Virus record (IMG/VR): IMGVR_UViG_3300046009_006217
Span: 1 to 30,765 of that record
From: a virus
Direction: 5' to 3' (one strand)
DNA length: 30,765 nucleotides
The notes under the pieces: model-generated
Database searches by the model: none
The model's input: only the letters and a program-made list of their open reading frames with translations
Told to the model about the DNA's origin: nothing
Made by a program: the position numbers and the translations under genes
Shown: in pieces, positions 61-28,373 of the stretch
Numbering within the stretch: position 1 is the first letter of the stretch
How the letters are laid out: each line of letters opens with the position of its first letter

Positions 61-1419
61 TCAGAGGGTGAACTTGACCATCGCGCCTGCGGCCGAAGAA
101 CTGCCGACGTTGGCGCACACGATATCGACGCGCTGAGTGCCACGAACGACGCGCTCGTCTTGCTCGAACGCATTGAGCGCCGAGTCAGAGAACGCGATCG
201 AGGTCGCTCGGCGGTCTCCGAGGTAGCATCCCTGCTGAAGATCTCCGACATAGAAGGCGACGTTTCCGTTGTCATCTGCCGGATGCGGAATCGCCTGCGA
301 GAACTCGACTGGATATCCGAGATATCGCGGCGCGAGTCCGTTCGAGAGTTCCGCCATAGTCGTTCCGCCAACGCCTTGCGCGAGGCGCTCGAAGATCGCG
401 TGGAAGGTCGACTTGTTGCAGAAGAACTTGACGTTGTTGCGTTGGAAGGCCCACTGCGGAAGGATCGCGAGCGCGCTCGAGATTTCGTCGCGAGTCACGC
501 CTGCCTTTGTGTTCGTGCTTGAAGTCGCGACCTGATAGGTTGCGTTCGTAAGAGCATTCTTGAGGCCCACGATGCCGCCGTAAGAAGAGGTGCCGTCGCC
601 GTTAAAGCCTGCGTCATCTTCCTTGAAGGCGAATTGGTACGCGATTTCGTTCGCAACATCGCTTGCAAGATCGATCACGCTGTCCTCGAGCAGTTCGTTC
701 GAGACGGTCGTGAGCGCCGTCAACTTGTGGGCGACAAGCTGGATCGAGTCGAAGCCCATGGTCGACTCGGTGCCTGCGATGGCTTCGCCAACCCAGTACG
801 CGGTCAATCCGGTGTTCTTGCGTGGGATGCGGAGCGTGTCGGATGCCATGCGGTAGATTTTCGCGTTGCGACGGAACACGCCGTACTGCTCACGAAGCGT
901 GACAAGTTCAGCAGCCATCTCGTCAGGAACAAGGAAGCCACCTTGCGAGTTCACGCCTTCGGTGTGTGCCTTGATCTGAATTCCGTGGTTGCGGCAGTTG
1001 TCGAGCGACTTCTTGTGACCCATGGTCGCAAGACACCATGTGCCGAACTTCCATGCCATCTCCTTCGATGAAAAGCTCTTGACCTTGTTCGAGTAGGTCG
1101 CGACCTTTTCCCAAGGCTTCTCATCGACGTTGCCAACGACCGAGAGACCGCGAGGCATCGAATCCAAACGCGAAGCGACTTCGCGACGGATGCTCTTGGT
1201 CATCTCTTCTTTCTCTTCTTCCTTCATCGCGTCAGTCTCAGGCGCGGCGGCCTTGATGACGACATCGAGGCTCTCAGGATCAACCATCATGCCTTCGGCA
1301 TCGGTGACCATGTAGCCTTCGAGAATCAACTTCTTCTGGTGCGCGACGCCTTCAGCGCCTTTGATCTTGGCGGCGCGATCGAGCGCGGCCTTGAACTGAT
1401 CGAGATTCATCGTCTTCAT
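61..1419 (-). CDS. Major capsid protein, HK97 fold
   Basis: This 452-aa protein has the layout of HK97-type capsid proteins. A charged, helical N-terminal part of about 140 residues is rich in Lys and Glu and probably acts as the scaffolding or delta domain removed by the protease. A long shell domain follows, with typical pieces such as GGFLVPDEM, a YWVGEA strand, KLTALTTVSNELLEDS, and a C-terminal part ending in a beta strand. It is encoded directly after the prohead protease, the usual order. I chose the ATG at 1419 because CGGAG stands 9-10 bases upstream. The in-frame ATG at 1440 would add seven residues but has a poorer ribosome site, and the ATG at 1410 is also possible. The family call is firm; the cleavage site is not visible. 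Confidence 0.93.
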   Translation of the reverse strand: MKTMNLDQFKAALDRAAKIKGAEGVAHQKKLILEGYMVTDAEGMMVDPESLDVVIKAAAPETDAMKEEEKEEMTKSIRREVASRLDSMPRGLSVVGNVDEKPWEKVATYSNKVKSFSSKEMAWKFGTWCLATMGHKKSLDNCRNHGIQIKAHTEGVNSQGGFLVPDEMAAELVTLREQYGVFRRNAKIYRMASDTLRIPRKNTGLTAYWVGEAIAGTESTMGFDSIQLVAHKLTALTTVSNELLEDSVIDLASDVANEIAYQFAFKEDDAGFNGDGTSSYGGIVGLKNALTNATYQVATSSTNTKAGVTRDEISSALAILPQWAFQRNNVKFFCNKSTFHAIFERLAQGVGGTTMAELSNGLAPRYLGYPVEFSQAIPHPADDNGNVAFYVGDLQQGCYLGDRRATSIAFSDSALNAFEQDERVVRGTQRVDIVCANVGSSSAAGAMVKFTL

Positions 1420-1499
1420 TTGAAAAACTCCGTGTGACATCTACTTCTTTTCCCGTTAGGAAGCGTTTCAAGCGAAGTGCCGTGAGCGCGACCGCGGTT

Positions 1500-2168
1500 T
1501 CAGAGATAGATGGAGCCGCGAGCGCGAGCGATCTCGCGAGCGACGGCCTCTTGAATAATCGGCTTGGCTTTCTGCGCGAATGAGGGCGCAGGAATCGAAA
1601 TCGAAACGACGGTGCGCTTCGGTGCTTCGATACCGAACCAACGCTTCGCGCCTGCAGGCGACACGATGCCCTTCTTGACGGCTGTGATAAGCGCTTCTGG
1701 ATTCGCCTGCAAAGGTGCAAGCGAGATCTCGAGCAACTTCCAACGCGAGTAGATCGTCTTCACAGCATCGCCGTACTTCTTGCGGTCTGCATCTGTTGCG
1801 CGACGAATACCGCCGTCCTCTGGGACGTATCCAACAGACACGGCGCGAACGATGCCTTGACCCACGAGCGCCGCGGCGACCTCTGGGAAGAACTCCCCTG
1901 CGTAGCCATCTGGTCGCTTCGCGAAGACGAACTCTCCGAGGATGTCTCGCTCACGGCGCTTGAGTTGCGTCGTCGTGCCGACTGGCTCTGAGTAGTCGTG
2001 ATTCCAAAAGAGCGTTGGGTTCTGCTCAAACTCCTTGGAGTTCATGCCGCTCGGAATCAGAACTTCTCCGTCGCGATCGAGCGTCTCTGCCGTGATGACA
2101 GCAGAGAATCCCTTTGCGGTTTGCGATAGTTGCGCTCCGAGTGCTTTGCGCTTGAGTTCGATCGTCAT
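1500..2168 (-). CDS. HK97-family prohead protease
   Basis: A 222-aa serine protease of the U35 type that matures the capsid by cleaving scaffold and capsid N-termini. The likely catalytic triad is visible: His57 in FWNHDYS, Ser111 in AVSVGY, and Glu147 in KLLEISLAP, followed by the usual proline/asparagine turn (PLQAN). The ATG at 2168 overlaps the stop of the portal fusion gene as ATGA. An upstream in-frame ATG at 2180 lies inside the portal coding region and is less likely. The C-terminal 50 residues are rich in Lys, Arg and Ala and may bind the capsid scaffold. A gap of about 80 bases without a recognisable terminator separates it from the capsid gene. Confidence 0.93.
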   Translation of the reverse strand: MTIELKRKALGAQLSQTAKGFSAVITAETLDRDGEVLIPSGMNSKEFEQNPTLFWNHDYSEPVGTTTQLKRRERDILGEFVFAKRPDGYAGEFFPEVAAALVGQGIVRAVSVGYVPEDGGIRRATDADRKKYGDAVKTIYSRWKLLEISLAPLQANPEALITAVKKGIVSPAGAKRWFGIEAPKRTVVSISIPAPSFAQKAKPIIQEAVAREIARARGSIYL

Positions 2169-5100
2169 TCTCCGCTCCATGGTTGGTTCAGCGCCATCTC
2201 GGCTTCTTGCTCGGCCAATGCTTCATCCAGAATGCTTTGGTATTCGCCGTCGAGTTGCGGCATCAGCGAGCATCGGCAATTCGGATGCAAAGGAGGCCCG
2301 TCGATCGATTCGTAGTCCGCGACCATTGTGCCTCCATCCTTGCCTTGAATCTCCGAGCCTTGCTCGTAGAAAGAGCCGTCGATGTCGACTGCGTTGTTCG
2401 AGAACGCTTCCGACGCGGCCTCGCAGAACTCACACGGATCAGGCGCGAGAAGCCAAGTCTTTCCCGTCACGACTCCAGATGCCTTCCATGCTTCGACTTC
2501 AGCGCGTCGGCTTGCTCTCTGTGATTCCGTTCGAGCGATGGTCAAGGCGCGTCGCTTCGTCTGGCGCTCTGCGTCGCCTTCGGCCTTGGCCCACTCTTTG
2601 ACGCGATCGGCCAACTGCGGAACTGTTTCACCGTTGGCGACACCTTCGCCAAGTATCTCTCGGAAGCGAACTGCCGTGTATCCGTTCACGGAGTTCGCGG
2701 CTCGATCCGCAAGGCGCACCGATTCGCTTCGCGCATAGGCTCGAAGATCGTCTCCGCGCTTCTCGAACGTCACGGGGAGCGCAGAGAGCTTCTCGAGCGT
2801 TTGTCGTCCGATGTCGAGACCGGCGAGCAAAGAATCCTCGAGATACGGTCGAAGCGCATCGATGAGCTGCTTGTTCCATCGCTTCGATGCGAGGATGCTT
2901 TCGATTTCCGTGACCAATTCTTGCGTCGGAGCCGATGCGCCTTCGATCTTCTCGAGCACGGCTTTGACTTGCCGATCGAAGATCTTCGAGACGCTCGATC
3001 CGATCTCTTCTTCTTGCTTGGTGATCTTCTCGAACTCGCGCTTCGCGTCTCGCTCACTCGCCTTCGTGTGGATGAAGCGCGGCTCGACTTCATCGGCCTC
3101 GATGGCTTTCGTCCACAGCGATTCAAGAGAGATGCGCTCAGATGGCTTCGCCAGCGGATCGCCGCCGCCGTTCTTCGCGCAGCATCCGCATGACTTCTTC
3201 TTTCGCTCGGCGTTGCGCTCGCGCTCGCGATCAAACTCATCGCGCTTTCGCTTCGCCCACGCGAAGCCATCATCGCCGCCCCAACCGTTCCATGCTTGCC
3301 ATCCCTTGCCTTGATCGTCCCAAGTCGAGCCTTCCTTGTCGGATTCGTGGCGCTCGAAATACGCCACCATGCGTCGGATCGTGTCCTCGGAAAGCGCAAC
3401 GCGATTCGCGAGATCTCGAGCACGAGCGATGCCGACAGCAGTCATGCCTCGCTCGGATTCCGGCTTTCGTGCGCGAACCTCAAGCGCTCGCTTCGCATTG
3501 TCTGCAACCGACTGTGGAGGTCGAGTGTCGATGTCGCCGAGAGCCTTCGTGACCGTCGGCAGAGTCTCCATCAACTCATCGAGCACGAATGATGCGGCGT
3601 GTTCAAGGGACTTCCCTTCGCTGCACATTGAGTACGCGATCGCGACTGCTTGATCTTGCTCATAGCCTTCATCAAGAAGTTTGCGGATCTTGTCGGAGAC
3701 ACAATCAGAAAGCGCGTCCTTCTGTTGCGGCTCGTCCATCAACTCAAAGGTCAAGCCTGCGTTCTGCTGCGTAGCTTGTGGCGGATCGTCGAGATCCGGC
3801 GCTTGATCGAGAGGCCCGACAAGGCCATCGGGTTCGGCATTCGCGAGGCCGACTGGTGGCATCGGAGCAGGGCCGCCGAGCGGCTGTCCATTGACGAGCA
3901 GCGCATCGGCCATCGGATCTTCGATCGGCTCGAGACCTTCGCGCATGCGCGCTTCGTTCGCGGTCATGATTCCGCCAGCCACCATCGAGCGCAACTTCTC
4001 AAACGCGAAGCGCTCGTCCTCAGAGACGGGGTTGTCGTACGCGAGGAACGCATCCTCCTCGATTCCGAAGAGAGGAAGAAGATTCTGATTCAGCGTCTCT
4101 TCATCCATGCGAAGAAGAGGAAGAATCGTCGTTTGCTTCCATGATGCGAAGCCAACCGTCGCGCTTGCGAGGTTTGGATCGTTTGCCTTGAGCATCGAGA
4201 CCGGCACACCGAAGACGGCTGCGATCTCTTCCACGATCTCCGAGCGTCCCGCGAGATCCTTCGGTGGGAACGACAGCGGCTTGAGATCGATGTCCGCCGT
4301 CGTCGTGAGGAAGCGGCCAGTTCGCTTTGATCCGCGAAGCTTCTCGTCGATGGCAACCTCAAGACGCTCGATCTCGTCATCGTGCGCTGGCGACTTCACG
4401 ACGAGGAGATAGTCAGGTCGCGCCTTGTTCGCGAAGAATGCCGTATCCATTTCATGGACGGCTTCGTTTGCCATCGTCGCGCCCCACGCGGCTTCGACCT
4501 TACCGATGCCGTAGTAGATATCCGCAGGGTTCGGCCGCTTGAAGTGAATGACTTCGTCTGGCTCAAACGTGTTCGAACGCTTCTGCTCTTCAGTCGCACC
4601 GTATCGATAGCCTTTGATAAATGGCTCGCCTGCTTGCTGTCCTGGAATGATCTCAACATATTGAGAAGGCATCGTCCAGAGTTCCACGGGAATGCCGCGC
4701 TTCTCGTCGATGACCGGATGAAGGTAGGAGTTTCCAGTCAATTCTCCATACAACACACGAAGCACGGCGGCATCGAATCCGTTCTGATACGGATTCACTT
4801 TCGACAGCAGCGTAAGGATCGGATGCGAATCCTCGACGACCTCATAATCATCGCCGTACTCGGCGGCCTTCGTCATTGCATATCGAGATGGAATCTGCTC
4901 GAGCGATCCGCTCAGATACGCTTTCGTGCGACGCGATGCCTTGCGCGTGTTCCACAGCTTCGTTCCGGCGCTGCGATTCTTCACATACAACCGCAGAGGT
5001 TGAGACGCGACCGCGACTGCATTGAGATTCGCGGCCGCGTAGATCCAAGATCGATACGCAGCTACTGCGGCAGTCTGCGAAAAAGATGCTCGCTTCGCAT

Positions 5101-5182
5101 CCTCTCCGCGAAGGACTGTCATCGTCGAGCGCATCCATCGCTCGTTGGAAAATGCCGCTTTGAGTCGTGCGAGTAGATTCAT
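2165..5182 (-). CDS. Portal protein fused to a MuF/SPP1 gp7-like minor head protein
   Basis: This 1005-aa protein is about twice the size of an HK97-type portal. Residues 1 to about 455 look like a portal: helical N-terminus, YRSWIYAAANLNAVA, an EVIHFKRPNP strand, IAAVFGVPVSMLKAND, and MTANEARMREGLEPIED near the end. A Pro/Ala/Asp-rich linker leads to two small modules seen in other phage head proteins: one with CVSDKIRKLL...QAVAIAYSMC, and one with ARARDLANR...TIRRMVAYFERHE...WNGWGGDDGFAWA. After a charged stretch with KKKSCGCC, the C-terminal third matches Mu F-type minor head proteins: RRALTIARTESQRAS, a CEFC pair near residue 917, and PLHPNCRCSL near residue 970. The gene starts by TGATG overlap with the large terminase. 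The fused form suggests a portal that carries its own minor head or ejection protein. Nothing indicates a frameshift. Confidence 0.9.
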   Translation of the reverse strand: MNLLARLKAAFSNERWMRSTMTVLRGEDAKRASFSQTAAVAAYRSWIYAAANLNAVAVASQPLRLYVKNRSAGTKLWNTRKASRRTKAYLSGSLEQIPSRYAMTKAAEYGDDYEVVEDSHPILTLLSKVNPYQNGFDAAVLRVLYGELTGNSYLHPVIDEKRGIPVELWTMPSQYVEIIPGQQAGEPFIKGYRYGATEEQKRSNTFEPDEVIHFKRPNPADIYYGIGKVEAAWGATMANEAVHEMDTAFFANKARPDYLLVVKSPAHDDEIERLEVAIDEKLRGSKRTGRFLTTTADIDLKPLSFPPKDLAGRSEIVEEIAAVFGVPVSMLKANDPNLASATVGFASWKQTTILPLLRMDEETLNQNLLPLFGIEEDAFLAYDNPVSEDERFAFEKLRSMVAGGIMTANEARMREGLEPIEDPMADALLVNGQPLGGPAPMPPVGLANAEPDGLVGPLDQAPDLDDPPQATQQNAGLTFELMDEPQQKDALSDCVSDKIRKLLDEGYEQDQAVAIAYSMCSEGKSLEHAASFVLDELMETLPTVTKALGDIDTRPPQSVADNAKRALEVRARKPESERGMTAVGIARARDLANRVALSEDTIRRMVAYFERHESDKEGSTWDDQGKGWQAWNGWGGDDGFAWAKRKRDEFDRERERNAERKKKSCGCCAKNGGGDPLAKPSERISLESLWTKAIEADEVEPRFIHTKASERDAKREFEKITKQEEEIGSSVSKIFDRQVKAVLEKIEGASAPTQELVTEIESILASKRWNKQLIDALRPYLEDSLLAGLDIGRQTLEKLSALPVTFEKRGDDLRAYARSESVRLADRAANSVNGYTAVRFREILGEGVANGETVPQLADRVKEWAKAEGDAERQTKRRALTIARTESQRASRRAEVEAWKASGVVTGKTWLLAPDPCEFCEAASEAFSNNAVDIDGSFYEQGSEIQGKDGGTMVADYESIDGPPLHPNCRCSLMPQLDGEYQSILDEALAEQEAEMALNQPWSGE

Positions 5183-6360
5183 CAGATGACCTTCAGAACG
5201 AGCGGCCTTCTTGCGCGTCGAGCGAGAACGGCAAGCGCCAGAGCGCACACACCGTCATCGTGACCGACCGTAGCCTCATACGAGACGCTTCTTCCTGAGT
5301 ATCGGAAACCAAAGGATTCAAGTTCAGCGCGAAGCCAACCGTCGGGGAATCGTATCTCGGCCGTCGCGATCGCAATTTGCAAGCCCTCCATGAGTTGTTG
5401 CTTGCTCTGGCTTGTGAACTTGAACCCTTCGACGCGACGGCAAACCTTCCGAAGATCCTCGACGATCGGATCTCCCACGCCAGTCGAATCGATCTGCGCT
5501 GGCTTCTCTGAGATGAGTCTCGCGAGTCTCTCTCGCGTCACGTTCCATGGAGCTTGCCACCGATCGAGATGGCACACACGGCCCTCGGCATCGAGGCCAA
5601 CAACGACCGTCCAGTCCTGTGACTTCGCGAGGTCAACACCGAAGCATTCGACCTGCTTCGTTGAGATAGGAGCGATGCAAGCGCGAATCGCATCAAGGCC
5701 GAATGGGTTTCCTCCGTCCTCAGCCGGAATACCCTCGAACTCTTGAGCAAAGATTTCCGGCGGAAGCATCCTCTTCGCGTCTCGAATCTCGTCGGGATCG
5801 ATGAACGGATTCGCCACACTGCCAATGCGAAACGCTTTCCAAGCGCCTGACGTGTCGGATTCAGCCTCAAGAAATAGACGATGGAAATCGCCTGTACCCT
5901 TTGGAGTTCCGAGGAAGAGTGCGCTCCCTCTCCGATCGGCAAGGGTAGGTCTCATCGACGCTCGCCATGCCTCGAGGAGATTTGGAGCGAAGCCAGCTTC
6001 ATCGATGACGATTCGATCGTACGAGCGTCCGCGGCCTGAGTCGACATCCTCGAGCGTCCAGAAGTCAATCGATCCGCCGGTGGCGAATTCCATGCGCTTC
6101 TCGACGCGATCATGTCGCGTAAGAATCGGCTTAAGCGCTCGCTCGAACTCACGAACTGGATCGGCAAGGTACTTGTACGACGGAGCGAACCAACCACACT
6201 TCCTACCAAGTATGGCAGTTTCGATCCCAAGTTGCATACCGAAGGTTGTCTTTCCCCAGCGACGGCCAATCTCGAGCACAGAGAATCGAGCAAGGCTTCG
6301 GTATACCTCGCGCTGCGAAGCATGTAGGACAGATTCAATAGATGGAATCTTGATCTTCAC
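5182..6360 (-). CDS. Terminase large subunit (packaging ATPase and nuclease)
   Basis: A 392-aa DNA packaging motor protein. The N-terminal ATPase shows a Walker A GRRWGKTT at residues 32-39, Walker B with catalytic acid IVIDEAG at 117-123, and a coupling motif GTPKG at 151-155. The C-terminal RNase H-like nuclease shows its acidic residues in FGVDLAKS (Asp243), QIDSTGVGD (Asp291) and GHDDGVCA (Asp368/369). It is on the short side for the family but complete. It starts in an ATGA overlap with the small terminase and ends in TGATG with the portal gene, the classical packaging order. The headful or cos type cannot be told from the protein by eye. Confidence 0.96.
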   Translation of the reverse strand: MKIKIPSIESVLHASQREVYRSLARFSVLEIGRRWGKTTFGMQLGIETAILGRKCGWFAPSYKYLADPVREFERALKPILTRHDRVEKRMEFATGGSIDFWTLEDVDSGRGRSYDRIVIDEAGFAPNLLEAWRASMRPTLADRRGSALFLGTPKGTGDFHRLFLEAESDTSGAWKAFRIGSVANPFIDPDEIRDAKRMLPPEIFAQEFEGIPAEDGGNPFGLDAIRACIAPISTKQVECFGVDLAKSQDWTVVVGLDAEGRVCHLDRWQAPWNVTRERLARLISEKPAQIDSTGVGDPIVEDLRKVCRRVEGFKFTSQSKQQLMEGLQIAIATAEIRFPDGWLRAELESFGFRYSGRSVSYEATVGHDDGVCALALAVLARRARRPLVLKVI

Positions 6361-6695
6361 GCGGTATCCGCGAGCGCGATCTTCGGCGCGATACGCTCAA
6401 TCGTGACTACTTCCTCGCGCCTCGTCTCGTCGATCTTGTCACGCTGGCCGAGGTACTGCTTCCCAAGCCAGATGAGCATCGGCACGGAGCCTTCCTTCGC
6501 CTTCTCGTATTGCCACCGGCGAAGCGACATCCGCATCTCGTCGTGTCCCTTGTCGATCTCGGCGCGAGCGCGACGCTTGATCGTCATCTCCGAAACTCCG
6601 ACGATCTTTGCGATCTCGGGAATCGTGCATCCGATACGCGCGAGCGACTGGACGAGACGGAAGTCGATCTCGGCGCGAGGTCTACCGCGAGGCAT
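6357..6695 (-). CDS. Terminase small subunit
   Basis: A 112-aa DNA-recognition subunit of the terminase. Residues 10-45 form a helix-turn-helix (LVQSLARIGCTIPEIAKIVGVS...TIKRRA), followed by a helical oligomerisation region (WLGKQYLGQRDK), as in many phage TerS proteins. The ATG at 6695 is preceded by GAAGG at a good distance and overlaps the 3' end of the Mom-like gene by 14 bases. It is followed directly by the large subunit through ATGA, which supports the call strongly. Confidence 0.9.
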   Translation of the reverse strand: MPRGRPRAEIDFRLVQSLARIGCTIPEIAKIVGVSEMTIKRRARAEIDKGHDEMRMSLRRWQYEKAKEGSVPMLIWLGKQYLGQRDKIDETRREEVVTIERIAPKIALADTA

Positions 6696-7479
6696 TGGAC
6701 AATCCTTCTATGTGAGAAAGCGCCGGGGTCGGAGTTGCACCGCCCCCTTCCGACTGGAAGTCGGTCGTGCCGCTTGCAGCACTTCCGGCGCGTTTTGTGC
6801 CTTTATACATTCCCGCTCCCATCCTGTCGATCTCCGAAAAATTGATCGGAGCGCAGCAAAGATTTTTCTTCTCCTCTGGATGCAAGAAAAACAGATATCG
6901 AAGCTGGAATCCATCGAGAGGCTTCGCGCCTCTCGCCCTCCACCATGAAACTTTTTGGACTGGATTGTTATTCAAAGTCTTGTCCGCAACGACGCTCCCA
7001 TCAGGCATTCGAAGCATCGTCTTGTTTCTCTTTATTTGCGTGAGGATGAAACCGCTTGCGCGATAAATAGTTCCGTCACCGCATTGCGTGGCATCAGCAA
7101 ACGAAACAACCCATTTGAGATGAGGGTATTTTTTTCGAATCCATCTCATCGCATATCCGATGGCCCTCGACTCGGAGTTTCTTGGCAACCAGTCAGAGAA
7201 TGCCATGCGATTCAGTTCGATGAACTCGTTCCATTTCGTCCCTCTGACGATTCCGAGCATCTTTCTTTTGTCGATGCTAGGGCCGAACTGCATGGCTCCT
7301 CCGCATTTCCCATTCAGGAAAACTCCGAGATGCAGTTGGGAGTTTTGAACTGCTCGACCTGAATAGTGCAGCGAAGAGACGATCTTTGATGCGTCCTTTG
7401 CGGATATAGGCTCGACTCTAATTTCACGCGCCGAAGCCATCAAGCCATGCTTTGCAGATTGCGGCGATTGCGTTTCCAT
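6682..7479 (-). CDS. Mom-like DNA modification protein (GNAT-type fold)
   Basis: This protein resembles the Mom family, which modifies adenine in phage DNA to protect it from host restriction. Recognisable family pieces are SSLHYSGRAVQNSQLHLGVF, CGGAMQFGPS, NEFIELNRMAFSDWLPRNSESRAIGYAMRW and SFADATQCGDGTIYRASGF, the acyltransferase-like core. The last 45 residues are a low-complexity Gly/Ser/Ala/Thr tail that runs into the terminase gene. Two starts are possible: the ATG at 7479 (265 aa, overlapping the ParB-like gene by 56 bases, weak GAG ribosome site) and the ATG at 7440 (252 aa, no clear ribosome site). Its place after the ParB-like gene and before the terminase fits a late modification step before packaging. 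The family call comes from memory of conserved motifs, without a search. Confidence 0.78.
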   Translation of the reverse strand: METQSPQSAKHGLMASAREIRVEPISAKDASKIVSSLHYSGRAVQNSQLHLGVFLNGKCGGAMQFGPSIDKRKMLGIVRGTKWNEFIELNRMAFSDWLPRNSESRAIGYAMRWIRKKYPHLKWVVSFADATQCGDGTIYRASGFILTQIKRNKTMLRMPDGSVVADKTLNNNPVQKVSWWRARGAKPLDGFQLRYLFFLHPEEKKNLCCAPINFSEIDRMGAGMYKGTKRAGSAASGTTDFQSEGGGATPTPALSHIEGLSNASR

Positions 7480-8041
7480 TCGAGTTCTCGTTTTCTTCGT
7501 GCTTTGCTATGCCTGCACTCTTCGCTCGATCAATCGCGCGATGCACTTCTTCGACCTGTGAATCGTGCAGGATGAAAGCCATTTGCTGAAACGGCTCACG
7601 GTCTGCGCTTTCAAGTAAGGGGGCCGAAGAGGGATCGACGCTGAATGCGCCAGTCATCTTCTCAAGTTCATCGGTTGAGTATCCCGTGGACGCGGCTAGT
7701 TCCTCGTCCTCGATCTGAAGTGCCGCAAGCGTCTGCGAGAGGACATCATCGTCCCACTCGGCAAGCTCGGAGGTCCGGTTGTCCGCGATCGCGTAGGCCG
7801 TAGCTTCGCTTCCGGAGAGAGGAGAGCGCACGATGCGAATCTCTTTCCATCCGAGCGCTTTCGCTGCGGCGAGCGTTCCGTTTCCGGCGCGGACGACACC
7901 GCTCGCGTCGACGACGATCGGCTTCTGCTGGCCGAAGCGATTGAGGCTCGCCTTGATCGCCGCGAGATTCTTCTCGTCGTGCTTTCGCACGTTCGCAGGA
8001 TCGAAAGTCAAAGACTCGATGGCGACTGTTTCCACTTTCAC
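7424..8041 (-). CDS. ParB-like nuclease/CTPase domain protein
   Basis: A 205-aa protein with a ParB/sulfiredoxin-type N-terminal domain: ANVRKHDEKNLAAIKASLNRFG at residues 16-37, PIVVDASGVVRAGNGTLAAAKALGW at 41-65, and IADNRTSELAEWDD. The last 90 residues are unlike plasmid ParB proteins and have no clear DNA-binding domain. In phages such stand-alone domains often sit near DNA methylases or modification genes, and here the next gene is Mom-like. A role in DNA modification or nicking is therefore more likely than partition, but this is inferred from context. It starts at GTG in a GTGA overlap with the methyltransferase-like gene. Confidence 0.85.
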   Translation of the reverse strand: MKVETVAIESLTFDPANVRKHDEKNLAAIKASLNRFGQQKPIVVDASGVVRAGNGTLAAAKALGWKEIRIVRSPLSGSEATAYAIADNRTSELAEWDDDVLSQTLAALQIEDEELAASTGYSTDELEKMTGAFSVDPSSAPLLESADREPFQQMAFILHDSQVEEVHRAIDRAKSAGIAKHEENENSNGNAIAAICKAWLDGFGA

Positions 8042-8730
8042 GCGACATCCTCCTCGAGATCCGTTTCTGGCTGTGCCTTTGCACGCTCGAGAAACTCGAT
8101 TTGCTCGACGCACTCGGCTTCGTACCCTTGAATCAGCGCCTTCGCGATCTGCCTCGCGTTGCGAGCGTTCACGAAATCAGGATGAATCCACCAGTCCTCG
8201 ACCGGAACGAGATTCACAAGGCTTGCCGTGTAGCCAAGCATATGCACATCGTGCGCGACGCATAAATATCCACGGCTCTCCATGATGCCGCGCATCGCTG
8301 CTCGGATGTGCTCGTTGCCTCGATACAGATCGTGCTCGACGCATGCGACGGCGAACTTCACGCGATCGAGAGGGAGCGTCACAAGCCTTTGAAGCGTGAG
8401 CGTTGGAGGCTCAAGATCAAGAGAAAGAAAGTCGATCTTGCCTGAGCTCTTGCTAGCCATCTCGAGCAAAGTCACATCAAGATCCGAATCGAATGCATCT
8501 CCGAAGATCTCGTTGTCTTCGCTGCGCTCTTTGACCAGTTGATCGAATGTCGCGATGTCCGCGAGGATTCCGCGCCACCCCACCTCCTCAAGAAACTTCG
8601 TGTTGCTTCCATTGACTGGATGGCCTGCTCCGAGATCGACGAAGGATCCGCTCTTCGATTGTCCGCGACAAAGCCACGCGAAAAGATCTTGCCTTGCTTG
8701 CGAATAGCTTCTCAGTTCCTCTAGTTCCAT
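8038..8730 (-). CDS. FkbM-like SAM-dependent methyltransferase
   Basis: A 230-aa protein with a Rossmann-type SAM site: the glycine-rich loop FVDLGAGHP is at residues 30-38, the following strand is WRGILADI, and the post-II acidic motif DFLSLDLEPP is at 100-109. This order and spacing fit the FkbM family, which usually methylates sugars or small glycans. The substrate is unknown. Because it lies next to fibre-type genes and the phage also encodes a glycosyltransferase, it may decorate a virion or host glycan, which is an inference. The ATG at 8730 has a clear TAGGAGAC ribosome site. Confidence 0.82.
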   Translation of the reverse strand: MELEELRSYSQARQDLFAWLCRGQSKSGSFVDLGAGHPVNGSNTKFLEEVGWRGILADIATFDQLVKERSEDNEIFGDAFDSDLDVTLLEMASKSSGKIDFLSLDLEPPTLTLQRLVTLPLDRVKFAVACVEHDLYRGNEHIRAAMRGIMESRGYLCVAHDVHMLGYTASLVNLVPVEDWWIHPDFVNARNARQIAKALIQGYEAECVEQIEFLERAKAQPETDLEEDVA

Positions 8731-13499: not shown

Positions 13500-13743
13500 C
13501 GGTGTTCTGCTTGAAGCAGTCCCATCCCATGAGGATTGCGTATTTCTGCGGACTGCGTGGCGGATCGCAAATTGCTTCCGATTCAATCTTGCAGATTTTT
13601 CTCCTCGCCTCGTCGCGCTCGGCGCGCAACCGCTCGATCTCGTCGGCGGCGTCGCGAAGATCGCTCATCACTGCGGTATCAGGGCAGCGGTCGTGAAGCC
13701 AGTCAGCCCACAAGCGAAGCCGATTCACGATGTCACGGCTCAT
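13492..13743 (-). CDS. Small helical protein with DAADEIERLRAERDE motif
   Basis: An 83-aa protein starting by ATGA overlap after the 159-aa coiled-coil gene. The N-terminus (RDIVNRLRLWADWLHDRCPD) and the coiled-coil segment are shared with the next gene. Its last 30 residues (AICDPPRSPQKYAILMGWDCFKQNTDE) are extra. The function is not known. The repeated motif points to duplication and divergence of a small phage gene. Confidence 0.65.
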   Translation of the reverse strand: MSRDIVNRLRLWADWLHDRCPDTAVMSDLRDAADEIERLRAERDEARRKICKIESEAICDPPRSPQKYAILMGWDCFKQNTDE

Positions 13744-14219
13744 GCGTTTTTTCCCATGTGTTCGAGATACTTGAGGAAGATGGCTCTCTGGCATTCGGTG
13801 ATGATCTCAAAGTCTTTCTTGCTTTTCGCATCGCTGAAAGTCTCGTACAACAAGCCGAGCATCGATCGCATCTCACGAAGAAGCGGACTCGCCTCTTCCC
13901 ATTCCTTGAGAAGCTTTTGCTTTTCCTCTGTTGCCTTCTTGTATCGATCACGCTCAAGAGCGGCTTCCTCAGACATGCGAGTGTGATTGTCTTTCAACTT
14001 CGCAATGATTTCGACTGCTTCGTTTTGCACCTGTACCTTGTACTCGTCTTTGAACGCGACCCATTTCGGATCGACTGCAAGAATCGATACCAATTTATCC
14101 AGGAGCGCGACTTCTCTGTCCGTGCTTTGAAACTTGTATGCCACGCGCACAGCGCTACCAAGCGCCTCGCGAAGGATCACGTCCATACGATCATCAACTT
14201 CCAGATTCTTCTTGCTCAT
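13740..14219 (-). CDS. Hypothetical helical coiled-coil protein
   Basis: A 159-aa protein, largely helical and rich in Lys and Glu, with a probable coiled coil between about residues 75 and 115 (TRMSEEAALERDRYKKATEEKQKLLKEWEEA). No signal peptide, membrane helix or catalytic motif is visible. It starts in an ATGA overlap with the upstream 59-aa gene and ends in ATGA with the next. It is not recognised as a known family. Confidence 0.65.
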   Translation of the reverse strand: MSKKNLEVDDRMDVILREALGSAVRVAYKFQSTDREVALLDKLVSILAVDPKWVAFKDEYKVQVQNEAVEIIAKLKDNHTRMSEEAALERDRYKKATEEKQKLLKEWEEASPLLREMRSMLGLLYETFSDAKSKKDFEIITECQRAIFLKYLEHMGKNA

Positions 14220-15714: not shown

Positions 15715-16007
15715 TGTGCCTCCTCCCCAAGAGAGGAGAGAGACTGGCTCTCTCCTCCCTCGGAGCGCTGCGGAGACGGCGCGTCCTGCGCGGACAGCTT
15801 GGACATCCTATCCTCGAGCGTGTCGCGAAGCCATTTCATCGCGTGAAATTCATCCTCGGTCTCTGCTGTGACGCGCTGAAGAATCGATTCCATTCCTCGA
15901 GCGACACATTTCGAGAGATATTTCTTGCGATTGACTTTGACGATCGCCGCTCTCTCTTTGCGCTTAGCTCGCATCATGGCCGTGTGTGCGTGATGATCTC
16001 TGCTCAC
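15711..16007 (-). CDS. Hypothetical early protein with basic helical N-terminus
   Basis: A 98-aa protein starting at GTG in a GTGA overlap with the Gp157-like gene. An ATG ten codons further in (MMRAKRKERAA) is an alternative. The first half is basic (RAKRKERAAIVKVNRKKYLSK), the middle is helical (DEFHAMKWLRDTLEDRMSKL), and the end is a flexible Ser/Gln/Glu-rich tail. It may bind nucleic acid, but this is a guess from charge alone. Confidence 0.6.
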   Translation of the reverse strand: MSRDHHAHTAMMRAKRKERAAIVKVNRKKYLSKCVARGMESILQRVTAETEDEFHAMKWLRDTLEDRMSKLSAQDAPSPQRSEGGESQSLSSLGEEAQ

Positions 16008-16525
16008 TTGATGACGAGGCGTGAGCCTCGCTCCATAAGGTTTGCGAATGGGAGCGTCTCGCCAGCCTCGAGCCGAGCGCGGATCGCGTCCTTGTCCGTC
16101 TCGACGACCGTCTTCCGCTTGACGGCCCACGCGGGGAGCTCGTCTGGCCCGACGCGAATGTCGAGAGGAGCTTTGCCGCCGTTCCGAGCCAGAGAGACGC
16201 GGAAGCGCTCGGTCTGCATGGTTGGAAGCGATCGTGACTCGAAGACGAATTTGAGCCGCTCGCGGAGCGCGAGCGCGGCACGATCGTCGATCTTCGCAAG
16301 CTCGCGGAGCCGTTCGGCCTCGGCGGTGCGAGCGGCAGCGCGGACCTCGATCTCTGAGATGAGCGAGCAGTATCGGTCGACCTTCTCTGCGAGATTCGTC
16401 GATAGTTCCTGCTCCCAAGCCGCGATCGCTTCGGCCGCTTGCGGCGACGAGATATCGCCATCTGCTTCGACGAGCAGCGCCTCGAGCGCTCGGAGATCAT
16501 CCGAGATTTCATAGAGCGTACTCAT
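16004..16525 (-). CDS. Siphovirus Gp157-like protein
   Basis: A 173-aa protein matching the Gp157 family in length and layout. It has an N-terminal MSTLYEISDDLRALEALL segment, a long coiled helical middle (EKVDRYCSLISEIEVRAAARTAEAERLRELA), and a beta-rich C-terminal part with LPTMQTERFRVSLARNGGKAPLDI and AWAVKRKTVVETDKDAIRARLEAGE. The family is found in early regions of many phages, often near recombination genes, and has been linked to phage resistance. A biochemical role is not established. It starts in ATGA overlap with the Xre-like gene. A truncated copy of its N-terminus lies 350 bases upstream. Confidence 0.85.
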   Translation of the reverse strand: MSTLYEISDDLRALEALLVEADGDISSPQAAEAIAAWEQELSTNLAEKVDRYCSLISEIEVRAAARTAEAERLRELAKIDDRAALALRERLKFVFESRSLPTMQTERFRVSLARNGGKAPLDIRVGPDELPAWAVKRKTVVETDKDAIRARLEAGETLPFANLMERGSRLVIK

Positions 16526-16875
16526 CGCGATCCTCCATTCATCTCGAAGAGCAGTTTTACAAGATGAACGAACGATTCCGGAGAGATCGTCTTCTCGCGT
16601 CTTTGGATGAGAGAGAGATAGGTCGGGGAAAGTCCGGATCGACGCGCGAGGTCGCGGAGCGATCCGTTCGCCTTTGTTCGCTCGACGAGATCCGGACCGA
16701 GTTCCGCGAGCGCGACTTCCTGATACGCGAGCGCGGAGACGATTCGACGAGACGCGGTCGCGAACGGGGAGAGCGTCTTCCACTTCTCGCGATCGGATTC
16801 CGTCTCCGGTCTCGGCATGAAGACCGGATCTTTCATCATCCGGTCGAGCTTCTTCGAGTTCTTTCGTCGCTTCAT
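16522..16875 (-). CDS. Xre-family helix-turn-helix regulator
   Basis: A 117-aa protein with a basic N-terminus (MKRRKNSKKLDRMMKD) and a C-terminal helix-turn-helix: GSLRDLARRSGLSPTYLSLIQRREKTISPESFVHLVKLLF, the standard Xre five-helix pattern. It probably binds an operator in the phage genome. No partner repressor or divergent promoter was found beside it, so a role in lysogeny is not indicated. It starts as ATGA after the 45-aa gene and ends as ATGA with the Gp157-like gene. Confidence 0.82.
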   Translation of the reverse strand: MKRRKNSKKLDRMMKDPVFMPRPETESDREKWKTLSPFATASRRIVSALAYQEVALAELGPDLVERTKANGSLRDLARRSGLSPTYLSLIQRREKTISPESFVHLVKLLFEMNGGSR

Positions 16876-18267: not shown

Positions 18268-18918
18268 TCAGCGCTCGAGCGTCCCCAAAGCGATCGGCGC
18301 GGCCTTTCCGGCCCTTCGGTAGAACTCACGCGGAGAGACTGGATTCAGCATGCGACCGGCTCGGAACGAGCCGCCGTCGCCAACGTTCGCGACGAATGAT
18401 CCCGTCTCTGGATCGAGGGCCGGACAATCGCGACCTGTCACCAGATCGCTCACGGCCAAGATCCACGCTTTACTCCACGCGGCGAAATCTTGGGGAGGAT
18501 TTCCCCAACCCACCGAGCGCAGGAAATCGATGGCTTCGCCGACATGCAGCGGATTCGCGATCTCGATCTCTCGACGGCGCTCAAGCCAGTCAGCCTCGAC
18601 GGCTCTCGCGTTCTCGTCGAGTGCCATCATGCGAGCTGTTGAGTCTGCGATTCGACGCTCAGCAGATCGAGCGCCTTCCATCTGATCTCGAACCTGCGCG
18701 AGGATCTGAAAGAACTTCGAGGGAATAAATCGCGCTCGAGGGCCGCTCCATTGAAGAGCGTATTCGTCGAGCGCTCTCATCGCGATCTCGCGAGGCTCCG
18801 CAGCGATACGCGGAAGCGCAAGCTTCCAAAGGGCATCATCCCAGTCTCCGCGGAAATGGCGCTTCGCCATGATCGCAAAGTTCGCGAGGTCGCTCTTCAT
18901 CATCGGATCAAGATTCAT
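18268..18918 (-). CDS. Putative replication accessory (helicase-loader-like) protein
   Basis: A 216-aa protein. The N-terminal 70 residues (LANFAIMAKRHFRG...DDALWKLALPRIAAEPREIAMRALDEYA...PRARFIPSKFFQILAQVRDQM) recall the helical domain of phage helicase loaders such as G39P, with a W...L..E....AL..Y....F.PS pattern. A charged helical linker with WLERRREIEIAN and a C-terminal half (FLRSVGWGNPPQDFAAWSKAWILAV...) follow. This resemblance is faint and found by eye. It lies just downstream of the RecT-like operon, where replication genes are common. The ribosome site (AAAGAGAC) is weaker than those of its neighbours. Confidence 0.5.
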   Translation of the reverse strand: MNLDPMMKSDLANFAIMAKRHFRGDWDDALWKLALPRIAAEPREIAMRALDEYALQWSGPRARFIPSKFFQILAQVRDQMEGARSAERRIADSTARMMALDENARAVEADWLERRREIEIANPLHVGEAIDFLRSVGWGNPPQDFAAWSKAWILAVSDLVTGRDCPALDPETGSFVANVGDGGSFRAGRMLNPVSPREFYRRAGKAAPIALGTLER

Positions 18919-24814: not shown

Positions 24815-25617
24815 CAGAAGTTCTCGCTGAGAAGGTTGAAGTCTGCGAAGCCTGGGAACGGTTGAATGAGGGTGACCACAGTTGCTCTCTGATTCCCTTG
24901 TGCGTCTGGCCCGTAGATCACCTCACCTGTCTGATTTCTCTTCGGGCTTTGCAGCATGTGAGAGAATTCATCCTGAGCGAACTTGTGCGTGATCGAGAAC
25001 TTTTCAAGGCCGACACGCGAAGCGTTCGCACCTTGATATAGCACCTGCCCGATCGGCGCTCCCTGAAACACCGTCAGATTTCGTCTGCCTCGAGCAGCAC
25101 GAATCGCAAGGCTTCGAGCAGGGAATGACGCTGCGCTTACCGTCTCTGTGATTGTGATATCGCTCATCCGAACAAGTACAGAAAGAGGAACGCCAGCGCT
25201 GTCAATTGAAGTTCCGCCGCAGTCGTTGTTGCTCTGCGTTCCATTCGAGGGAATGGTTGGACTCAGTCTCCACTGGTCGCGAAACTCTGATCGGTAATCG
25301 ATCGTGATTTGCACATATCCTTCCTCTTGCGGAAGTTTTCCGCCAGGCTCTGTGTTCTCGTAGTTGAATGTGACTTCCCAAACATTTCGCGACTCAGGGA
25401 CGAAACGAATCGAATACGAGATGGCATAGACCACAGTCTCATCGGGAAAAAGATCACCTATATCCGGCAGCGAAGATCCGAATGTCGCTCGAACTCCACT
25501 CGGCGAAGTGATCGCAGAAGCATCATCCCAAACATGGAATGTGCGCGAGGCGCTCTTCTTTCCGCCGTTGTCGGAGAATCCGCGAGTCTCTTGAAGTTCG
25601 ATGTATTCGACAGCCAT
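24814..25617 (-). CDS. Probable distal tail or baseplate protein
   Basis: A 267-aa protein directly after the tape measure gene, the usual site of a distal tail or baseplate hub protein. It is beta-rich (AVEYIELQETRGF, YAISYSIRFVPESRNVWEVTFNYEN, VQITIDYRSEFRDQW) with a small Ser/Gly/Thr-rich central loop containing one Cys (SNNDCGGTSID). It starts as TGATG with the tape measure gene. The role is inferred from the gene order; no sequence family was recognised. Confidence 0.5.
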   Translation of the reverse strand: MAVEYIELQETRGFSDNGGKKSASRTFHVWDDASAITSPSGVRATFGSSLPDIGDLFPDETVVYAISYSIRFVPESRNVWEVTFNYENTEPGGKLPQEEGYVQITIDYRSEFRDQWRLSPTIPSNGTQSNNDCGGTSIDSAGVPLSVLVRMSDITITETVSAASFPARSLAIRAARGRRNLTVFQGAPIGQVLYQGANASRVGLEKFSITHKFAQDEFSHMLQSPKRNQTGEVIYGPDAQGNQRATVVTLIQPFPGFADFNLLSENF

Positions 25618-26657
25618 CAGGTGAGTCCTAGGTTTGTCATCGCTCGATTAATTTCACGCAACTGGCGAAGCGAATCTTGATCGTTCCTCTTCTTGTCGGC
25701 GTCGGAATACGCATCGAATGTGAAAGTCCCGAGCGCCGTATTCGCACTTGTAACGCCAGCTGTGAAAGCGTCTGCTCTCTTCTGCTCGATCTCTTCTTGC
25801 TGGTCTCGCAATTCACCGAGACGCTTCACGGCTTCTTCAGCAAGCTTGTCCGCGATCTCCTGCTCCTCTTTGGCTTTCTTCGCGGCGAGATCTTCAGCGG
25901 CTTTCAACTGCTGTTGCTGCTCTCGATCTATGGCGGATCGACGATCGCGCATCTCGATATCGAGCGCCTCGAGGGCGATCTGCTTTCGCTTCTCATAGAT
26001 TTCATAGGTAAGAGAAGCTTCTTCCTCAGATCGCGTCTCATACAGAGCCTTAGTTCTCTCGCGCTCGTTTTTCGCGATGATGTCGTTGCGCTTGCGCTGA
26101 AAGATTTCTTCAAGATCGGCCGCGGTATCGATGCGCTTCTCGACGAATTCAATCTCGCCGCGCCTAAATTCTTCCGCATAGGTCTGACGCAACTCCGCGA
26201 CGCGCTTTTCGTTTTCGACATCTTCCTTTGCAGATTGCTCGAATGCGGCGATTTGCTCGGCATATGCCGCCTCTGCGAGTCGAGCCTGTTGTCTCGCCGC
26301 GGCCTCTGCTGCTCCGATCGTGTTCTCATACACAGAGTCGAAGATGGCTTGTCCAAGATCGACGAACGCTCCTGCGAACGGAACGCTCTTGAGGGACTCT
26401 ACGAGCGCTTCCGCGATCGACTTGTCAGATCGAAGAAACGAAGCCATCGATCTCGCCAAGCCTTCAGCGGCTTTGATTCCTTGGAACTTTCCCAAGATCG
26501 ACTCGGCCTGCATCTGGCTCTTCAGCGAAAACTCTTCCTTGAAACTGCGTCCGGCTCTGCTTCCTGCTTCTTCTGCGCGCTGCTCAACATGCTTGAGATC
26601 CTTCTCAATCTGTTGGTAGTTCGCGAGGATGTTGATTTCGATGTCGCCGGCTTTCAT
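25617..26657 (-). CDS. Tape measure protein (short)
   Basis: A 346-aa protein. The N-terminus (MKAGDIEINILANYQQIEKDLKHVEQRAEEAGSRAG) is like those of tape measure proteins. The middle has one hydrophobic patch (VPFAGAFVDLGQAIFDSVYENTIGAAEAAA), and from residue 130 there is almost continuous coiled coil rich in Glu, Arg, Lys and Ala (FEQSAKEDVENEKRVAELRQ...EEEASLTYEIYEKRKQIALEAL...). It follows the G/GT-like chaperone pair as ATGA. At roughly 0.15 nm per residue the tail would be only about 50 nm long. This is an estimate, not a measurement. Confidence 0.75.
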   Translation of the reverse strand: MKAGDIEINILANYQQIEKDLKHVEQRAEEAGSRAGRSFKEEFSLKSQMQAESILGKFQGIKAAEGLARSMASFLRSDKSIAEALVESLKSVPFAGAFVDLGQAIFDSVYENTIGAAEAAARQQARLAEAAYAEQIAAFEQSAKEDVENEKRVAELRQTYAEEFRRGEIEFVEKRIDTAADLEEIFQRKRNDIIAKNERERTKALYETRSEEEASLTYEIYEKRKQIALEALDIEMRDRRSAIDREQQQQLKAAEDLAAKKAKEEQEIADKLAEEAVKRLGELRDQQEEIEQKRADAFTAGVTSANTALGTFTFDAYSDADKKRNDQDSLRQLREINRAMTNLGLT

Positions 26658-26863
26658 CGGAGTTGATCCTCAACGTAGCGCTGGTGCCACGGTCTTCTAT
26701 CGACCTCTCCGCCTTTGCAAGCGAGAGCGAGATGAGCATCGAATTCCGCGATTGTGAGATCGAGAGGGTTCCCCAAGCCTGGAGCGGTTCTCGCGATCAA
26801 GTGCGCTTCGCTCAGGAAGTCCCGCGGCCGCGGCTTCACCGGCGAAGCGCTCACTCGTTTCCC
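26654..26863 (-). CDS. Tail chaperone extension read by -1 frameshift (GT-like)
   Basis: This frame follows the G-like chaperone in the -1 frame. The ribosome slips at GGGAAAC (26863-26857) and continues as RVSASPVKPRPRDFLSEAHLIARTAPGLGNPLDLTIAEFDAHLALACKGG... to 26654, adding 67 residues for a fusion of about 194 aa. The extension ends at the tape measure start (ATGA). It is helical with a Pro-rich joint. An ATG-initiated form from 26899 is possible but has no good ribosome site. The layout is that of lambda G and GT, which assist tail assembly by binding the tape measure protein. Confidence 0.75.
   Translation of the reverse strand, partial: GKRVSASPVKPRPRDFLSEAHLIARTAPGLGNPLDLTIAEFDAHLALACKGGEVDRRPWHQRYVEDQLR
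26803..26863 (-). promoter_or_regulatory. -1 frameshift signal in the tail chaperone gene
   Basis: GGGAAAC lies in the correct phase (G GGA AAC) three codons upstream of the G-like stop. A six-base spacer is followed by a 9-bp stem, GCGCTTCGC at 26850-26842 pairing with GCGAAGCGC at 26811-26803, with a palindromic CCGCGGCCGCGG in the loop. Lambda uses GGGAAAG at the same point in its tail genes, which supports the reading. Confidence 0.85.
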
Positions 26864-27237
26864 GCGTCTCGATTCTCGTCGGTGTTGACGTTCAAGCATT
26901 TCGCAGCAAGCACGGAAAGCCTTCCCGGCTCGACACTCGCAGCAAGCATCTCGAGATCCGTCTCAGACTCGAGCGCCACACGAAGCACAGCCATCGCACC
27001 TCGGAGCGTGAAGCAGTCCATCACAATCGCGGAGACGCGCTCTGCCTTGTCGACTGCGTCGCCAACAAAAGCGAGCGCATCTCGCGCAGGAAGACCAGAA
27101 GCCTTGACGATCGCAAGCGCCTTCTCTCGCTCGTATGCCACATGCGCCTCGACGAGCGCCATACGCTCGCGCACGGTCAAAGGTCGCAGTCGATACACGC
27201 GACCGCCATCTTCAATCTGAAACGGTGCCACACTCAT
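26851..27237 (-). CDS. Tail assembly chaperone, G-like
   Basis: A 128-aa helical protein (FQIEDGGRVYRLRPLTVRERMALVEAHVAYEREKALAIVKASG...) that ends in NRDAGNE just after a slippery heptamer. Its position before a -1 extension and the tape measure gene is typical of lambda G-like tail chaperones, which cover the tape measure protein during tail assembly. A minority of ribosomes should produce the longer fusion. It starts as ATGA with the upstream small gene. Confidence 0.78.
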   Translation of the reverse strand: MSVAPFQIEDGGRVYRLRPLTVRERMALVEAHVAYEREKALAIVKASGLPARDALAFVGDAVDKAERVSAIVMDCFTLRGAMAVLRVALESETDLEMLAASVEPGRLSVLAAKCLNVNTDENRDAGNE

Positions 27238-27509: not shown

Positions 27510-27965
27510 TCAGACAAGCCAAGTCACGACAGGCGCGGTGCCGTCTGCATTCTCAAAGTTCACGGTGACGGTCGAGTCGCCGTTTCGATCGCTGTTGAAT
27601 GCGAAAGACGAGAACACACAGTTTCCGGTGATCTTTGCGTCATTCGTCGATGCCGCATCGTAAAGCGTGAGAGTCACAGCAGGTCGCGTCGATGTCGTGT
27701 CCTGCGAACTCATCATTATGTTTGCTGTCGAGGTTGTGGTCGTGCCAGCGGTCGAATCCACACCGATCGTCGCGTTCAGCGTTCCGGTAAGATCGAGCAT
27801 ACCGAGGCGCTTGCGCTTGCCGGTGTCACCGAAGCCAGTCTGATCTGTCACGACGCGATTGATGTTCGCTGCGTAAGAGCGCACCTTGAACAGAGTTTGC
27901 GCCACGCTGTTGACCGTATACGAGAAGTTTCCGTCGTTGCCTGTGATGTATGTATCGATTGGCAT
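27510..27965 (-). CDS. Major tail tube protein
   Basis: A 151-aa protein, rich in Thr, Ser, Asn and Gly, with strands such as DGNFSYTVNSVAQTLFKVRSY, RKRLGMLDLTGTLNATIGV, PAVTLTLYDAAST, CVFSSFAFNSDRNGDSTVTVNFENADG. This is the general look of small siphovirus tail tube proteins, and the gene sits between the tail completion gene and the chaperones, as expected. It has a clear AGGGAG ribosome site, in keeping with high expression. Confidence 0.75.
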   Translation of the reverse strand: MPIDTYITGNDGNFSYTVNSVAQTLFKVRSYAANINRVVTDQTGFGDTGKRKRLGMLDLTGTLNATIGVDSTAGTTTTSTANIMMSSQDTTSTRPAVTLTLYDAASTNDAKITGNCVFSSFAFNSDRNGDSTVTVNFENADGTAPVVTWLV

Positions 27966-27974
27966 GATGCTCCC

Positions 27975-28373
27975 TTATGTGTCGTGCGCGATCGCTCTGT
28001 ACCTCTCAACAATCGACCAAGAATCATCCTCGAATGAGGGTACGCCGCTCTCAACCTGCGTGAATCGCACTCGGTCGTATCCAGTCACGGATGTCAGCGG
28101 AGTTGAAAGCGCGGTCGCAAGCGCTGCTGCTGCTGTGTAGCCTGTCGCCGTGCCGACGTTGCCGAGATGAAAGATGAAATCAAGATCGATTTCGACTCGC
28201 GTGACGGCTCCGAAATATGGTGTCGTTCGTACCGCCGTTGCCTTGTATACGAGGAGAGGCGGATTGACATCGGTCGGCCCCTCTTGCAAGTAGATCTTCG
28301 ATCCGACGATCGTCGCGAGAGTGGCCGAGGCATCGAGTCGAGAGTTGAGAGCGTCGAGGATGGCTTTGCTCAC
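27975..28373 (-). CDS. Tail completion (terminator-like) protein
   Basis: A 132-aa protein resembling small tail completion or terminator proteins of HK97-like phages: ILDALNSRLDASATLATIVGSKIYLQEGP, PPLLVYKATAVRT, EIDLDFIFHLGN, then a helical ATGYTAAAALATALSTPLTS and a final strand containing RVRFTQVESGVPSFEDDSWSIVERY. It would cap the tail tube where it meets the neck. It starts as ATGA after the gp10-like gene, with the tube gene next. Confidence 0.72.
   Translation of the reverse strand: MSKAILDALNSRLDASATLATIVGSKIYLQEGPTDVNPPLLVYKATAVRTTPYFGAVTRVEIDLDFIFHLGNVGTATGYTAAAALATALSTPLTSVTGYDRVRFTQVESGVPSFEDDSWSIVERYRAIAHDT

Follow-up and report, generated by a model that had tools for sequence, protein, structure and literature searches.

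In the window, a stretch of viral DNA of 30,765 nucleotides (positions 1 to 30,765 of the record IMGVR_UViG_3300046009_006217), the small gene in front of a predicted tape measure gene very probably carries a programmed −1 ribosomal frameshift site (we put the probability at about 0.95). Judged from its sequence and from the sequences of its relatives, the site would allow a predicted tail assembly chaperone to be made in two forms, the protein G and a G-T fusion.

Anatomy of the site

All elements of the site are found on the minus strand. The G-like gene, which encodes a predicted tail assembly chaperone of 128 aa (26851..27237, minus, zero frame), ends with the codons GCG GGA AAC GAG TGA, the stop codon being TGA 26853-26851. 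The original prediction placed a GGGAAAC in phase with this gene just before its stop, and the heptamer G_GGA_AAC is indeed located at 26857..26863 in the X_XXY_YYZ register relative to G (26863-26857). The six-base spacer and the 9-bp stem proposed to follow it were found as well. The spacer GAGTGA (26851..26856, minus), which contains the zero-frame stop TGA and has the same length of 6 nt in relatives of the same clade, leads to a putative stimulatory stem-loop (26803..26850, minus), which was revealed by folding. In its outer stem, GCGCTTCGC / GCGAAGCGC, positions 26850-26842 pair with 26811-26803, and all 9 bp are paired. The minimum free energy of the stem-loop is −30.5 kcal/mol (z −3.3), and equal folding was reached in one of 200 shuffles. 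A palindromic inner hairpin had also been described. There is additional pairing around CCGCGGCCGCGG inside the 9-bp stem in the window, but it is not kept in the close relatives L069, L070 and L071, in which the outer stem is kept.

The −1 frame extension, referred to here as the T domain (26654..26857, minus), comprises 67 codons and a TGA, and the translation across the junction would be ...DAGN-RVSASP..., continuing in the T frame as RVSASPVKP.... As stated in the original prediction, this frame ends at the start of the next gene: its TGA (26656-26654) overlaps the ATG (26657-26655) of an ORF which encodes a protein of 346 aa (25617..26657, minus). The name tape measure protein for this product is predicted, and the position of the ORF in relatives agrees with that name.

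Within the window alone the heptamer is unremarkable, since GGGAAAC occurs there at chance frequency (2 observed, 2.4 expected). In-phase XXXYYYZ heptamers arise at a rate of 0.0019 per codon, i.e. about 0.02 per gene end of ten codons, and two further ORF ends in the window contain one (13740-14219 and 18268-18918, both minus). These numbers favour a heptamer that came to lie at a gene overlap by chance, and the window sequence by itself could be read in that way. It is the comparison with the relatives that settles the question at the sequence level. What stands out is that 44 of 45 distinct relatives have kept the heptamer; combined with the structure downstream of it, this comparison refutes chance, which retains a negligible probability.

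The heptamer in related phages

Relatives were collected by three scans of viral contigs and one scan of genome contigs, which gave 45 distinct junctions (below 95% nucleotide identity). These form 15 groups at an identity of about 60%, and between the most distant pair of relatives the fusion is 31% identical. Two of them sit in metagenome-assembled genomes labelled Rhodobacteraceae and Proteobacteria, labels that hint at possible hosts.

An in-phase heptamer in slippery register, from which the T frame is open, is present in 44 of the 45 distinct relatives. GGGAAAC is the most frequent variant (29), followed by GGGAAAA (10), GGGAAAG (2), AAACCCT (2) and GGGAAAT (1), so the last base of the GGGAAAN heptamers can be C, A, G or T. 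The glycine codon is GGA in 42 of 42 GGGAAAN cases, compared with 78 of 246 glycine codons in the body of G. The codon before it has a G at its third position in all 42 cases, though the encoded residue varies among six (A, S, Q, P, E, T). The constraint therefore follows the nucleotide heptamer and not the protein. Elsewhere, the end of G differs between the relatives both in length and in residues. The distance from the heptamer to the conserved T block is nearly constant (36 nt in most relatives), and the zero-frame stop is located anywhere from 7 to 61 nt downstream of the heptamer.

The heptamer might instead be a purine-rich, Shine-Dalgarno-like element that serves the next start, its register being incidental, and in the window GGGA does lie 5 nt before a GTG. 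However, in a large group of relatives, in which the stop is found 7 nt on, an NTG follows directly after GGGAAA, which leaves no spacing for ribosome binding. The slippery register in 44 of 44 heptamer-bearing relatives also speaks against a ribosome binding site, and contrary to this reading the AAACCCT variants are not purine-rich. We consider such a role extremely improbable. Transcriptional slippage is not favoured either, as a long homopolymer run is absent.

Comparison of the slippery site between relatives bears out the original prediction: heptamer, register, spacer and downstream stem are kept across deep divergence, and the starts in the second frame are not. Loss of the heptamer with continued independent use of the second frame had been named there as the pattern that would argue against a fusion. 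Only one distinct relative, L050, shows it (1 of 45), as a single exception: an in-phase heptamer is lacking there, and the G stop is overlapped by a GTG (around 3050-3130). A GGGAGAT in slippery register is found further upstream in L050. The missing heptamer may be a real loss or a sequence error.

The relatives L041-L048 and L144 contain AAACCCT in place of GGGAAAN, again in slippery register (e.g. L041:3378-3384). These sequences represent two lineages, which group together in the tree, and the distance from AAACCCT to the conserved T block is 36 nt, the same as in the GGGAAAN relatives. We see even odds that the heptamer was exchanged within the family and that these phages use A_AAC_CCT for G_GGA_AAN, in which case tRNAs for Asn and Pro would slip. 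AAACCCU has been predicted as a site in an insect toti-like virus (PMC7150801); our literature search for this heptamer revealed only that prediction and none in a bacterial virus.

The T frame and its possible starts

The T frame is open and conserved, and it is under protein-coding constraint, as is the zero frame. Close relatives show 0 to 4 residue changes in T against 5 to 28 nucleotide changes, and the differences cluster at third positions of the T frame.

Two possible starts for T exist in the window, GTG 26854, which overlaps the TGA of G, and ATG 26899, from which the ORF finder reports an ORF of 81 aa (26654..26899, minus). The original prediction was silent on them as well as on the minus strand. 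Because both are present, it had to be tested if T is a separate protein, made either by re-initiation at GTGA 26854-26851 or from ATG 26899. NTGA overlaps are also common in relatives, and the GGGAAAATGA clade has an ATG at this place. Overlapping starts are, however, expected by chance, since a TGA stop always yields an NTG in the −1 frame, and in relatives whose stop is TAA or TAG (L014, L037, L041, L051, L059) no start overlaps it. Close to the junction, the T frame of nine among the 44 distinct relatives contains neither ATG nor GTG. L128 and L022 have a T frame that is closed 12 nt ahead of the heptamer and that contains neither of these codons up to the conserved block; L120 and L061 have their zero-frame stop within T, 61 nt beyond the heptamer. 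The ATG at 26899 corresponds to GTG in L006/L071 and is absent in many relatives. Independent initiation would moreover not predict a strictly phased heptamer. It fails to explain the overall pattern, because the distance from heptamer to T is nearly constant while neither the T-frame starts nor the position of the first stop is, and we regard a separately initiated T as very unlikely. Programmed frameshifting is preferred since it alone, among the readings considered, predicts the heptamer, start, stop, spacing and third-position patterns together.

RNA structure downstream of the heptamer

For the 54 nt that follow the heptamer, folding was set against that of shuffles preserving the T protein and the codon use of the family. 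The mean z value for the 44 relatives is −2.1, versus −0.2 in control windows located 60 and 90 nt further on. Some single relatives have no excess structure (L132, z 0.07; L076, z −0.2). From clade to clade, the stems are unrelated in sequence (GCGCTTCGC, GTCCCTCGG, GGCCTCCGCG, CCCGCGG and others). When pairs were counted in two clades, 89% and 100% of cells were paired with the arms in register, and 29-60% with the arms slid against each other. Each of the two clades contains one two-sided change, which is not above shuffles, and strict covariation is for that reason not claimed. A putative stimulatory structure a few nucleotides past the heptamer is thus present both in the window, as the 9-bp stem behind the 6-nt spacer, and in the family, as an excess of structure.

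Identity of G and genomic context

It is likely that G is a tail assembly chaperone and that the downstream gene encodes the tape measure protein, as far as profile matches of relatives and gene order can tell. Hits to phrog_344 'tail assembly chaperone' were obtained with six of 15 members of the G family (best E 0.0011), and a hit to phrog_24 'tail length tape measure protein' (E 0.0012) with the downstream gene of one relative. In nearly all relatives this downstream ORF occupies the same position and overlaps T. To this extent both names given in the original prediction hold; they do so through weak matches of relatives, as the window's own proteins have no direct match. G and T of the window gave no significant Pfam or PHROG match, the Pfam search with G and T of 15 members revealed nothing useful, and tblastn against reference phages with G, T and a distant G found no match. 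The fold of G is predicted with confidence (mean pLDDT 87). A fold search of the PDB with this model gave no significant match, and in a search of viral models two matches with E <0.001 were obtained, both to uncharacterised Caudovirales proteins; annotated chaperones appeared only among the weak hits.

G and T are located between tail genes and the predicted tape measure gene, for which the weak profile match suggests the name. On the other side of G, gene order points to a protein of 151 aa (27510..27965, minus) as the major tail protein; its match to phrog_290 'minor tail protein' is weak (E 0.013). A tail completion protein is encoded at 27975..28373 (minus; PF11367, gp17-like, Pfam E 3.9e-07, above the gathering score), and the upstream neck protein matches phrog_5 (E 5.6e-08). 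The predicted tape measure protein comprises 346 aa in the window and mostly about 320 to 380 aa in relatives. By the usual helix rule, a tape measure of 346 aa would mean a tail of near 50 nm.

The neck and tail genes form the right end of the contig (24449-30065, minus) and are encoded on the same strand as the head genes. The latter form the left end (61-6360, minus) and include the terminase, a 1027-aa fusion of the portal with a head morphogenesis domain, the protease and the capsid. The contig appears to be circularly permuted, and a search of its ends for exact repeats of 12-399 bases gave none. Further proteins assigned on the minus strand are a Mom-like DNA modification protein (6682-7479, E 5e-49), a ParB-like/methyltransferase-related protein (7424-8113) and a Mu Gam-like end protection protein (16004-16783).

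Proposed mechanism and known systems

Most ribosomes would read GCG GGA AAC GAG TGA and stop, yielding the 128-aa G protein. A ribosome with GGA and AAC in its decoding sites would be held back by the stem, which starts 6 nt downstream, and in some of the passages the two tRNAs may shift back by one base to pair with GGG and AAA. The ribosome would then go on to read CGA GTG AGC..., adding the 67-residue T domain to give a fusion of about 194 aa. That slippage takes place with some efficiency is what we infer from the features described above. By analogy with lambda, excess G would coat the tape measure protein and the rarer G-T would recruit the major tail protein. One point counts against the heptamer of the window: in E. 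coli, AAC as second codon shifts less readily than AAG, as demonstrated for A_AAA_AAC versus A_AAA_AAG (reviewed in PMC5009743).

The well known example of such a shift is the G / GT tail assembly chaperone of phage lambda (Levin 1993; Xu 2004, 2013, as cited in PMC5009743). Lambda and the window have in common a small gene just before the tape measure gene, a −1 shift (predicted for the window) at GGGAAAN near its stop, a C-terminal T extension and adjacent tail genes. They differ in the heptamer, which is GGGAAAG in lambda and GGGAAAC in the window, in the strong stem-loop following the site in the window, and in the predicted tape measure of only 346 aa; sequence similarity between lambda and the window proteins is not detectable. 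GGGAAAC itself was predicted as the slippery site of the tail chaperone in Burkholderia phage KL1 (gp18/gp19; PMC3483164). As in the window, the KL1 heptamer is found directly before a TGA stop with a predicted −1 tail chaperone fusion, but in KL1 the fusion is separated from the tape measure gene by an additional gene, and G and T of the window match no reference phage. The same heptamer was predicted as tail chaperone slippery site in Caulobacter phage Colossus (PMC3556154) and is given as such for the haloarchaeal virus HCTV-1 (PMC5009743). These are different phages, for which no sequence relation to the window was detected.

The site very likely represents a −1 frameshift of the lambda G/GT type, with a known mechanism, in a phage family without a match in the reference collection. 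What is new is limited to the AAACCCT subclade and to this unannotated family, whose heptamers form a deep natural series, and the understanding of tail assembly is unchanged by the finding. Standard annotation would miss the fusion or split it into two genes across a whole family of uncultured phages. The range of heptamers in this natural series (GGGAAAC, -A, -G, -T and AAACCCT), combined with unrelated stems in one geometry, would be useful for measuring the sites and the structures that bacterial ribosomes accept.
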